Assembly (NCBI RefSeq): GCF_009914765.1 | Contig: NZ_WYDS01000004.1 | Coordinates: 98,029 to 162,028 of the forward strand | Direction: 5' to 3' | Source: Halodesulfovibrio sp. MK-HDV | GTDB taxonomy: Bacteria > Desulfobacterota > Desulfovibrionia > Desulfovibrionales > Desulfovibrionaceae | Length of the DNA stretch: 64,000 bases | Part shown: one piece after another, positions 8,518 to 33,726 of the stretch | How the letters are laid out: every line of letters begins with the position of its first letter | Numbering within the stretch: the stretch's first letter is position 1 | Notes under the pieces: generated by a model | What the model saw: only the letters and a program-made list of their open reading frames with translations | What the model was told of the DNA's origin: nothing | Database searches by the model: none | Made by a program: the position numbers and the translations under genes

Positions 8518-9630
8518 ATGGCAAAAGATCGTTTATACTTTTTAGATAACTTACGAGCTTCAATCATTTTTCTCGTAGTTTTGTTGCATGTGTCTCTTTG
8601 CTACATGCTGTATGCTCCAAGCTGGTGGTATGTAATCAATCCGGTTTCCAGTATCTTTTTTACACTTCTCGTTGTGCTGATTGATGTTCCGATTATGCCT
8701 GCCATGTTTTTTATTGCTGGGTATTTTGCCATACCGTCATTGCAACTACATGGTGCAACAGAGTTTTTGCGACAAAAGACTTGGCGAATATTCACACCAT
8801 GGGTGCTGGGCATACTGTTGTTGGCACCACCGACAGCTTTTATGATTCCTTTTACGCGCAATCTTCCTGTAGAAATTTTTTCTTTTTGGACGGGAGCATT
8901 TTGGGCTGAAGCGTTTCAACATTCAGTATACTGGTTTCTTGCTTTGCTCTTCTGGATGTTTGTTGCACTGACTTTGCTATGGAAATGCATTCCAGCGTTG
9001 CACACGTTGACCCAAACTCCAGCGAAGGCACCGCTATGGTTTTTTCCTGTGTTTGTAGCGATATCAGCAGCTTGTTTCTTCACAGTTATTCAGTTTTTGC
9101 CTCTGGATTACTGGTTTGTCAGTTACTTCCTTTCATTCCAGCCTGAACGAATTTTTCAGCATGTTTTGTATTTCAGCCTTGGTATTTGGGCCTGGAAATA
9201 TGGTTGGTTTACTGAAGGTGGATATTGCCCTCGCAAGCGTGCATGGTTGCCGATTCTTGCGATCACTATGGCTGTATATCTTCTGGTCAAAATGGGATTT
9301 GCCGCATCCACTGCGCCGCTGTTGAATAAGCAGTTTGTTTTAGCCTGTTCCTTTGCAACGTATTGCATCGCATCGCTTATGGGGTGGAGCGCGGTATTTA
9401 GTACGTGGGTCAATGGTCGCGGACGTTTTTGGCGTTCCGCAGCGAAGAATTCTTACGGAATTTACTTTTTACATGCCTTAGTCGTTTATTGGTTAGCGTA
9501 TGGTTTGATTGCCGTAACGTGGTCAATTTATATAAAAGCAGCAGTAGTATTTTTTATTACCACAATATTCTGTTGGTTATTTACCTCCGGCGTGTTGCGA
9601 AAAGCACCATTGTTGAGGCGTATGTTCTAA
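8518..9630 (+). CDS. Acyltransferase family 3 membrane protein
   Basis: A 370-residue integral membrane protein of the OafA/YrhL-type acyltransferase group, which moves acyl groups (often acetyl) onto sugars or lipids. The N-terminal signature is DNLRASIIFLVVLLHVSL with the conserved histidine, followed by about ten hydrophobic helices. A longer frame opens at 8410, but ATG 8518 has a GAGGAG site six bases upstream and starts directly at the family N-terminus (MAKDRLYFLDNLR). It is 21 bases upstream of the EamA transporter and may be co-transcribed with it. The acceptor is unknown. Confidence 0.88.
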   Translation: MAKDRLYFLDNLRASIIFLVVLLHVSLCYMLYAPSWWYVINPVSSIFFTLLVVLIDVPIMPAMFFIAGYFAIPSLQLHGATEFLRQKTWRIFTPWVLGILLLAPPTAFMIPFTRNLPVEIFSFWTGAFWAEAFQHSVYWFLALLFWMFVALTLLWKCIPALHTLTQTPAKAPLWFFPVFVAISAACFFTVIQFLPLDYWFVSYFLSFQPERIFQHVLYFSLGIWAWKYGWFTEGGYCPRKRAWLPILAITMAVYLLVKMGFAASTAPLLNKQFVLACSFATYCIASLMGWSAVFSTWVNGRGRFWRSAAKNSYGIYFLHALVVYWLAYGLIAVTWSIYIKAAVVFFITTIFCWLFTSGVLRKAPLLRRMF

Positions 9631-32495: not shown

Positions 32496-32894
32496 TTAGA
32501 GTGCTTTTGATGTGAGCGGTTTGGTGGCTGGCTGTTTGCAGGAAGTGCCACCTTTCTGATTATTCAGTATAGCTTGAAATTTGTTGTCGCGTTTTGCAGC
32601 TCTGTTAATGAATTCGTCAGCGATTTTTGTAGGCCCGTTGCATTCGTTCACGAGGTAATGTTGCAGCTGTTCAGCTTCGGCGAAACTAAGTGCCCCATGA
32701 AGAGTGCGTTTATTTGGGTAATTAATATGGAACGTAGATGAGAGGATGAATTTGCCAATGGAGGTTTTGTACAGCTTCAGCTCCCACCAGTTTGGTGTAA
32801 CGCCCATTACTTCTCTGTCATCAAGGTTCACAAGTAACTCACCTGTAAATACAAGATTCTCTTTGCCATTTCTTTTCAAGGAAACTGTCTGCAT
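32496..32894 (-). CDS. Hypothetical protein (132 residues)
   Basis: A soluble protein of unrecognised family. The first 80 residues alternate in a way that suggests beta strands (ENLVFTGELLVNLDDREV, WWELKLYKT). Residues 85-115 look helical, and the tail is Lys/Thr-rich with one Cys. There is no signal peptide or membrane helix. The start has AGGAG six bases upstream, so expression is likely. It stands alone; a weak hairpin lies just downstream (GATGG / CCATC, 32459-32479). A terminator at 33.15 kb separates it from the glycine riboswitch upstream. No function is proposed. Confidence 0.65.
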   Translation of the reverse strand: MQTVSLKRNGKENLVFTGELLVNLDDREVMGVTPNWWELKLYKTSIGKFILSSTFHINYPNKRTLHGALSFAEAEQLQHYLVNECNGPTKIADEFINRAAKRDNKFQAILNNQKGGTSCKQPATKPLTSKAL

Positions 32895-33144: not shown

Positions 33145-33185
33145 TAAAAATGCAGATGCGCCGGAACTAAAAGCTCCGGCGCATC
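33145..33185 (-). terminator. Terminator without an assigned gene upstream
   Basis: Perfect 11-bp stem GATGCGCCGGA / TCCGGCGCATC with TTTTT after it on the minus strand. The transcript it ends would start at the glycine riboswitch about 230 bases upstream. Confidence 0.8.
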
Positions 33186-33388
33186 GCAACCACAACAACA
33201 AACCAGTCAGGAGGGGAATCTATATTCCCCTATATATGTATCGCTCAAGGCGATTACAAACGTGATCAAATGCTCCCCAGTTTGCTGGCTGTTAGTGCAT
33301 AGACGCAAAAAAACAGCCCGCTAAGCGGTGCCTAGATGGAAACGGTGAGACTGGAAAGTGGAAAAGAGGACGGCAAAACGCAATATTC
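33186..33388 (-). other. Gene-free segment downstream of the glycine riboswitch
   Basis: On the minus strand this holds a short CCGC / GCGG hairpin followed by TTTTTTT (33305-33331), a GGGGAAT / ATTCCCC hairpin followed by TCCTGACTGG (about 33205-33232), then the 33.15 kb terminator. No reading frame with a ribosome site was found. Confidence 0.45.
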
Positions 33389-33409
33389 AAAAAACCAAAT
33401 ATTGGTTTT
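33389..33409 (-). terminator. Expression-platform terminator of the glycine riboswitch
   Basis: AAAACCAA / TTGGTTTT hairpin followed by a T run, five bases after the second aptamer. This is the usual position of a riboswitch-controlled terminator. Confidence 0.6.
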
Positions 33410-33414
33410 ATGGG

Positions 33415-33592
33415 TCCACTCTGTCCTTTTACCTGAGAGTTTCACTGCACTGGGAAAGCAGTTTGCTCCTTCGGTGCTCCTTGCGGAGTCTCTCCAGAGG
33501 CTCGTCCGAGCAGCAGTCCTTTTGCCTGAAAGAGTTACATCTTCGGCGCCGTGTCTTTTTTTGGGGAAAAAAAGGCGGTCTCTCCTGCTGCC
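33415..33592 (-). promoter_or_regulatory. Tandem glycine riboswitch
   Basis: Two aptamers on the minus strand. Aptamer 1 (33592 to about 33506) has GCAGGAGAGACC, CGCCGAAG, ACTCTTTCAGGCAAAAGGAC and a GCAGCA/TGCTGC closing stem. The linker CGGACGAGCCTCTGGAGAG is typical of tandem forms. Aptamer 2 (to about 33415) has GGAGAGACTCC, CACCGAAGGAGCAAA, AACTCTCAGGTAAAAGGAC and a CTCTG/CAGAG closing stem. These match the Vibrio-type tandem element motif by motif. The plus-strand frames over this region are shadows. No glycine cleavage or symporter gene follows. Confidence 0.97.
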
Positions 33593-33726
33593 TTCAACCG
33601 AGATCCATATGTTGAGGCAGACTCCTATTTATCGTGGGCAGATATAAAACGCAATAGAAAAAGCACCACAGTAGTTGAAAATCCAGTATTCCGTGAAAGT
33701 AAAATCGATTTTCACATATGCGAAAT

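Follow-up and report, generated by a model that had tools for sequence, protein, structure and literature searches.

A tandem glycine riboswitch of Halodesulfovibrio is predicted to control a small RNA that may pair with glycine genes in trans

Introduction

Riboswitches have been described mostly as cis devices, and the locus analyzed here raises the question of what a riboswitch controls when no coding gene follows it. The window, i.e., the whole stretch of 64,000 nucleotides that was analyzed, corresponds to contig C4:98029-162028 of the 4.17-Mb draft genome of Halodesulfovibrio sp. MK-HDV (G000) and carries a complete tandem glycine riboswitch on its minus strand. A sequence-only reading of the window had recognized this riboswitch, and RF00504 confirmed it on both aptamers (33411-33597), at scores above the cut-off of 32 bits; the same reading had left a small regulatory RNA and the remains of a lost gene as possible explanations for the sequence that follows. 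We propose here, with a probability of about 70%, that the glycine riboswitch gates a small RNA which acts in trans to repress glycine genes and that the gcv target has thus moved from cis to trans, an interpretation derived from sequence comparisons among ten genomes (G000 to G009, with G000 being the genome of the window) that were taken as Halodesulfovibrio.

Results

Organization of the locus

Located 3' of tgt (identified by PF01702) on the minus strand are, in this order, a terminator, the promoter-like sequence TTGCGT-17-TAAATA, two glycine aptamers and a switch hairpin. The switch hairpin is followed by a hairpin resembling a terminator, then by an inverted repeat, a further hairpin and a GU-rich stretch, and a strong terminator closes the series at 33185-33155. 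The individual features, in window coordinates, are:

33626..33654, minus strand: predicted promoter of the riboswitch transcript, TTGCGT (33654-33649), 17 bases, TAAATA (33631-33626), read from the sequence
33504..33597, minus strand: glycine aptamer 1 (RF00504, 52.7 bits, above the cut-off)
33411..33507, minus strand: glycine aptamer 2 (RF00504, 66.2 bits)
33360..33426, minus strand: switch hairpin (hairpin A), GGACAGAG and its downstream arm, predicted in ten of ten genomes
33307..33333, minus strand: terminator-like hairpin AGGCACCGC-TTA-GCGGGCTG, then TTTTTTT, read from the sequence
33237..33258, minus strand: inverted repeat TGTAATCGCC...GCGATACA, 5' of the putative small RNA, either a hairpin (H0) or a promoter/operator element
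33231..33259, minus strand: possible internal promoter TTGTAA-17-TATATA, overlapping H0, read from the sequence
33213..33230, minus strand: 5' hairpin of the putative small RNA, GGGGAATATAGATTCCCC, predicted in nine of ten genomes
33207..33213, minus strand: anti-Shine-Dalgarno stretch CTCCTGA, its form kept in nine of ten genomes
33184..33205, minus strand: invariant GU-rich putative pairing core TGGTTTGTTGTTGTGGTTGCGA, 22 bases, identical in ten of ten genomes
33155..33185, minus strand: terminator hairpin of the putative small RNA (14-pair stem), then TGCATTTTTA

The predicted fold of 33620-33145 beat 100 of 100 shuffles (z = -4.9) and that of 33400-33150 beat 200 of 200 (z = -3.9). A generic promoter scan did not pick up the predicted riboswitch promoter (33626..33654); TTGC stands before the riboswitch at a near-constant distance, give or take a base or two, in all ten genomes, and the -10 element is weak in four diverged genomes. 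The terminator-like hairpin at 33333-33307, which was read from the sequence and was not among the matches of a terminator scan of the window, is shared by the six closer genomes, of which G001 and G008 have a weaker T run. All four counted pairs of H0 are kept in all ten genomes, in one case by a change in each partner, and the T run after the terminator of the putative small RNA is short.

The gene-free stretch and second terminator described in the sequence-only reading were both found, as no minus-strand open reading frame of at least 40 residues lies between the riboswitch and the terminator with 14 pairs at 33185-33155; shorter frames in this interval are not conserved across genomes. 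The GGGGAAT/ATTCCCC hairpin followed by TCCTGAC, also described there, is present at 33230-33206. Among the relatives, the sequence of this 5' hairpin is changed in G008, G004, G003 and G006 and the hairpin is absent in G007, while the adjoining stretch reads CTCCTGA in seven genomes, TTCCTGA in G003 and CTCCCGA in G006 and is missing in G007.

Riboswitch and switch hairpin

Both aptamers exceeded the RF00504 gathering score in a whole-genome search (66.2 and 52.7 bits), and a window-wide gathering search returned aptamer 2 alone. A match to the glycine-GGAnGA variant (RF03166) spans both aptamers and scored 80 bits versus the 110 needed; as this is below the gathering score, membership in the variant was rejected. 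G000 carries a second tandem glycine riboswitch (C4:41929-42102), which lies 5' of a sodium:alanine symporter gene (PF01235, E 1.8e-135). The earlier statement that the usual targets are absent therefore stands for the locus itself, which has no coding target, but not for the genome, in which the symporter target is found with the second riboswitch. A riboswitch copy preceding the symporter was found in nine of the ten genus genomes, with none in G004; the symporter was called from translations in the relatives and by a PF01235 search in G000 only.

Through GGACAGAG, the switch hairpin (33426-33360) takes up the 3' strand of the aptamer-2 P1 helix, and GGACAGAG was predicted to pair downstream in all ten genomes when fragments without the 5' strand of P1 were folded. 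In these models, the switch hairpin and aptamer-2 P1 would be mutually exclusive; a hairpin of this kind is the usual competitor of P1. U-rich sequence follows the switch hairpin in some genomes (e.g., G001), is poor in G005 and is not found in G006 and G007; where both are present, as in G001, hairpin and U-rich sequence would together form the terminator of an ON switch. The terminator that the sequence-only reading had assigned to the riboswitch (AAACCAATATTTGGTTTTTT, approximately 33409-33389) did not hold up, as it needs a 16-base insertion that is absent from all five alignable relatives. This insertion (33409-33389) makes a perfect-looking AAACCAA/TTGGTTT terminator within the switch hairpin.

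Conservation and genomic context

A search of 59 genomes (including that of the window) with RF00504 found riboswitches in 15, i.e., the ten of the genus and five others, and in all ten genus genomes a tandem riboswitch is followed by the small-RNA element. An exact scan for TGGTTTGTTGTTGTGGTTGCGA in one genome per species, covering 84,980 species with records near the window's own possibly left out, returned three records, all of them Halodesulfovibrio (H. spirochaetisodalis JC271 and two MAGs). Three pairs of the small-RNA terminator are changed on both sides between two clades. For the terminator and H0 together, 190 of 190 cells (19 pairs) are paired, and 16 cells are double-changed compared to a shuffle mean of 6.4; as cells count sequences, these 16 represent few events on one split.

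Neighboring genes were taken from tblastn, because a mechanical neighbor picker chose other, overlapping frames in some GC-rich genomes. Six genomes have tgt directly upstream of the riboswitch and a gene encoding 132 residues downstream, on the same strand and approximately 280-290 bases past the core. In G003, G004, G006 and G007, tgt is more distant from the riboswitch, with one or more other genes in between and a 215-residue gene next to it, and a convergent gene with weak AsmA/DUF748 similarity, under the Pfam cut-offs, ends approximately 50-70 bases past the core; this convergent next gene excludes a coding target in these four most diverged genomes. Judging from these alignments, the linkage between riboswitch and putative small RNA has outlasted changes on both flanks, and no coding gene was seen directly downstream of the riboswitch in any of the ten genomes. 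The 132-residue protein of the window (32496-32894, minus strand, starting at 32894) has no Pfam match and is encoded by the next gene after the putative small RNA; in the other four genomes, its homologue lies on the far side of tgt and is encoded on the other strand.

A genome from another genus of the same family also has a tandem glycine riboswitch after which no gene was seen (G011; L005, C41 at approximately 8866-9038; L076). There, an immediate terminator is followed by approximately 220 bases of non-coding sequence, then by another, strong terminator and an open reading frame in convergent orientation. The spacer in G011 did not fit that genome's own gcvT or gcvH, for which 9 and 28 of 60 shuffles, respectively, did as well.

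Predicted targets

When up to three mismatches were allowed, a scan of the ten genomes with the core complement gave 40 matches, 10 of which are the element itself; the 30 non-self matches, versus 21 for the reversed pattern, do not amount to a decisive enrichment, and looser patterns were not enriched over their reversed controls (172 versus 182 and 155 versus 217). The core complement was thus rejected as a motif in genome-wide excess. As far as sequence comparison goes, the target signal lies in where the matches fall: among the 20 of the 30 non-self matches that were read, three are located just before gcvT (G009, G004) and gcvH (G004). A CA-rich box is found 5' of the Shine-Dalgarno sequence of gcvT, gcvH and glyQ in ten of ten genomes each, with glyQ (PF02091) carrying ACCACAACAAC or ACCACAACGAC in every one of them. 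The target sequence at gcvT of G001, AACCAGTCAGGGAGGA, is an almost exact complement of TCCTGACTGGTT in the small RNA, and CTCAGGAGGA at gcvT of G004 fits that genome's own CTCCTGAG. The predicted duplexes cover the Shine-Dalgarno sequences of gcvT and gcvH; at glyQ, as drawn out for three genomes, the predicted duplex comprises the box and, after a gap, the Shine-Dalgarno region. Complementarity to ribosome sites, which the sequence-only reading had proposed, was upheld to the extent that CTCCTGA, kept in nine of ten genomes, pairs with the gcvT and gcvH Shine-Dalgarno sequences in these duplexes; the invariant part, however, is the GU-rich core just 3' of CTCCTGA, which had not been singled out. 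Since G007 lacks the anti-Shine-Dalgarno stretch yet keeps the core, the case for this stretch as the main feature is weakened.

Predicted duplex energies ranged across genomes from -35.3 to -47.7 for gcvT and from -31.2 to -39.5 for gcvH, while a second gcvH paralogue, which served as a negative control in five genomes, gave -16.7 to -27.2 and no excess. This paralogue (L128-L132) is present in five of the ten genomes and has no CA-rich box. In G000, gcvT, gcvH and glyQ gave -38.2, -33.1 and -32.3 and ranked 1, 5 and 6, respectively, in a sample of 356 start regions with a mean of -20.2 and an sd of 4.8; when z-scores relative to shuffled start regions were used instead, they ranked 1, 6 and 14. 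Three other G000 genes (-36.4, -36.0 and -35.7) outscore gcvH. The 356 start regions represent approximately 0.46 Mb of G000, with the window included, and were taken from 20 non-random stretches, selected so as to contain gcvT, gcvH and numerous pattern matches. This selection should render the background more stringent; given these non-random stretches and the mechanically called gene starts, the ranks are approximate. The stretch containing glyQ was not chosen for this gene, which emerged sixth unprompted. In G006, gcvT ranked 1 of 323 by energy and 2 by z, and gcvH and glyQ are unranked because the mechanical gene finder did not pick them.

When the small RNA was shuffled 200 times, 0-1 shuffles were as good as the real sequence for gcvT in all ten genomes, 0-2 for gcvH in nine genomes (7 in G006) and 0-4 for glyQ in eight genomes (9 in both G006 and G007). 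An exact shared stretch of at least 9 bases was found in 6 of the 356 G000 start regions, including those of gcvT, gcvH, glyQ and a dimethylglycine-dehydrogenase-like gene. Outside the genus, the box was missing from the 20 gcvT and 19 gcvH start regions that were read, with longest shared stretches of 6 and 7, respectively; a further 18 genomes with gcvT matches are not among the 20, and one of 20 fetched gcvH regions was too short. Some start regions outside the genus gave low energies despite lacking the box, the lowest being -34.8 for gcvT and -33.8 for gcvH with the G004 small RNA. No box was seen by eye in the gcvPA start regions of the seven genomes in which a script found this gene (three were missed). 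The gcvH leaders of the six closer genomes contain a TTATGAC...GTCATAA inverted repeat upstream of the CA-rich box, which is perhaps an operator.

Reversed controls place limits on this evidence. The motif read backwards gave a stretch as long or longer at gcvT in four of ten genomes (12 bases in three of them), at gcvH in seven and at glyQ in none, and in the G000 background a stretch of at least 9 bases occurred in 4 of 356 regions backwards versus 6 of 356 forwards; the backwards matches at gcvT and gcvH arise because CA-rich text reads alike in both directions, and the exact order of the box appears to be only partly specific. With the GU core alone, 1-73 of 200 shuffles were as good at gcvH, a modest gain which indicates that CA-richness and the Shine-Dalgarno sequence carry much of the score. 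For gcvH of G006, the reversed small RNA (-37.8) fits better than the real one (-31.3), whereas the real small RNA was the stronger in the other 29 genome-target pairs.

Other genes preceded by the box

Among the boxes read (17 plus glyQ in G000, of 19 listed including the element, and 11 including glyQ in G006, of 12), glyQ is the sole gene seen with the box upstream in both genomes. The exact 10-base box ACCACAACAA in G000 also precedes a nitrogenase-component-like gene (PF00148) as well as genes that, from their translations, we take to be hydroxy-acid-oxidase-like and microcompartment-like. The nitrogenase component-1-like gene (L228:8141-9493, minus strand, PF00148) has AACCACAACAAGAAAGTGAAAAAGGAGG before its start in G000, and its box has no counterpart among the matches listed for relatives. 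L226:10085-12535 (plus strand) encodes an 817-residue protein with DAO and GCV_T domains that resembles dimethylglycine/sarcosine dehydrogenases, and CGCAACCAC stands directly before its Shine-Dalgarno sequence; in a GcvT search of the ten genomes, a second match of the DAO plus GCV_T type was found in G000 only.

Discussion

Proposed mechanism

Conserved linkage to the riboswitch, an invariant core, a terminator with compensatory changes and complementarity at three glycine genes were computed in ten of ten genomes. In the mechanism that we propose, promoter, tandem glycine riboswitch, switch hairpin and small RNA would form one transcription unit ending at approximately 33155, with a small RNA of approximately 75 nt that would extend from the 5' hairpin at 33230 to this end. 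Its GU-rich core and the preceding CTCCTGA are predicted to pair with the CA-rich box and the Shine-Dalgarno sequence of gcvT and gcvH mRNA and, in glyQ mRNA, with the CA-rich box and a later site. Pairing of this type should block ribosome binding, with repression as the simplest outcome, and the riboswitch would through this predicted pairing control the glycine cleavage system in trans. We infer that the transcript exists, that it represses, and that it answers glycine via read-through past the switch hairpin. A search for Hfq (PF17209) found no match in any of the ten genus genomes and detected E. coli and B. subtilis Hfq, so that the pairing would have to do without Hfq, either unaided or with a different chaperone. 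We further consider it more probable than not that the only output of this riboswitch is a base-pairing small RNA with multiple targets, through which cis control of gcv by glycine became a trans regulon without Hfq, comprising gcvT, glyQ and the gcvH operon, to which this strain may add a dimethylglycine dehydrogenase, such that one sensor would serve several unlinked operons.

With regard to the direction of control, the two available clues disagree, as the switch hairpin with U-rich sequence points to an ON switch and the aptamer scores point to an OFF switch. We favor, at roughly even odds, the possibility that glycine switches the small RNA off and thereby releases gcv, since aptamer 2 has the higher score wherever both aptamers were scored (nine genomes; one was listed in G003), as reported for OFF switches, which conserve the aptamer-2 pocket more than the aptamer-1 pocket according to an excerpt of PMC13104608; the bit score of an entire aptamer reflects this pocket only roughly. 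An OFF switch combined with repression would mean that glycine induces the cleavage system, which is the usual logic. That glycine switches the small RNA on is a possibility to which we give about one chance in three; it would represent end-product repression, in which glycine shuts down the cleavage system, and would be sensible for a system run towards glycine synthesis, as in Desulfovibrio desulfuricans, which fixes CO2 by the reductive glycine pathway according to an excerpt of PMC7547702.

Alternative explanations

Riboswitch and small RNA may instead be separate units, with the small RNA transcribed from its own promoter under another regulator and the riboswitch giving a short terminated leader. 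This arrangement, which we regard as unlikely, is consistent with the TTGTAA-17-TATATA sequence over the inverted repeat, which keeps a spacing of 17-18 in the six closer genomes, and with the terminator-like hairpin (33333-33307) that precedes it; however, the other four, diverged genomes have no -35 element recognizable by eye, the linkage is kept in ten of ten genomes despite changed flanks, and the predicted targets are glycine genes. With a promoter of its own, the small RNA could be expressed independently of the riboswitch. The shared motif could also be a protein site, i.e., a DNA operator or the site of an RNA-binding translational regulator, at gcvT, gcvH and glyQ and, inverted, at the riboswitch locus, with no RNA-RNA pairing involved, as might suit a CA-rich motif of low complexity for which the reversed control is as long at gcvT in four and at gcvH in seven of ten genomes. 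The box is placed just before the Shine-Dalgarno sequence, however (at gcvT of G000 within a 52-base gap after the upstream gene), pairing runs in register into the Shine-Dalgarno sequences of gcvT and gcvH, and the motif at the riboswitch locus is located between a hairpin and a terminator; we regard a protein site as quite improbable.

A small protein under riboswitch control, for which a short TTG-started frame over the core in several genomes might speak, is very improbable and was rejected: this frame is not among the listed frames in G005, G008 and G004, it has no Shine-Dalgarno-like match in the other genomes, and the spacer indels are not multiples of three. The lost-gene explanation, by which both the riboswitch and the hairpins would be remnants of a glycine gene since lost, fits the lack of a coding target in G000, but is scarcely credible and was likewise rejected, as no gene was seen at the site in ten genomes, no symporter or gcv gene was seen between riboswitch and terminator in any of them, four have a convergent next gene, the core is invariant and the hairpins are compensated. 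The small regulatory RNA that the sequence-only reading had offered beside it is, on the other hand, well supported by the linkage and core in ten of ten genomes and by the complementarity to three glycine genes.

Comparison with known systems

If our interpretation is true, a metabolite sensor drives a trans-acting pairing RNA, with predicted targets spanning ten genomes, against genes that it controls in cis elsewhere, and whether glycine turns the small RNA on or off would reveal if these sulfate reducers use the cleavage system to break glycine down or to synthesize it. The aptamers are the same as those of the cis-acting glycine riboswitches of gcvT and symporter genes, but here no coding gene is found in cis. 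GcvB is an enterobacterial, glycine-responsive small RNA with a GU-rich unstructured core and C/A-rich targets; it is controlled by the GcvA protein, mainly targets amino acid transporters and uses Hfq as its defining partner. The element described here has the GU-rich core, the C/A-rich targets and glycine as a signal in common with GcvB, but differs in that Hfq (PF17209) was found in none of the ten genomes; with 19.6 bits versus the 42 needed for RF00022, it scored below the gathering score, and membership in the GcvB family was rejected.

Riboswitch-controlled non-coding RNAs are known, including AspocR, an antisense RNA to pocR, and Rli55, which titrates the EutV protein, as described in an excerpt of PMC8079631. 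Like these, the product predicted here would be a non-coding RNA acting on pathway genes of the same metabolite; judged against that excerpt, it differs in that the ligand is glycine and the product resembles a short multi-target pairing RNA with targets on other contigs. The SAM riboswitch RNA SreA of Listeria also pairs an mRNA in trans, but there, according to the same excerpt of PMC8079631, it is the riboswitch, once terminated, that acts in trans, and it has a cis target as well. In Neisseria gonorrhoeae, a tandem glycine riboswitch of gcvT and the sibling sRNAs NgncR_162/163, which pair with the gcvT ribosome-binding region, control gcvT/gcvH (PMC13104608, excerpt); as that excerpt presents it, gcvT is the cis target of the riboswitch and the sRNAs are separate regulators that act in trans, whereas the prediction here is that the sRNA itself is under riboswitch control. 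In the literature searched, partly as best-ranked matches, no glycine riboswitch with a trans-acting RNA product for gcv and glyQ was found. Non-coding RNAs run by riboswitches and sRNAs acting on gcvT/gcvH are thus known individually, while the combination predicted here, a glycine riboswitch leading to a trans-acting RNA, appears to be new and, in comparative terms, has a strong basis.
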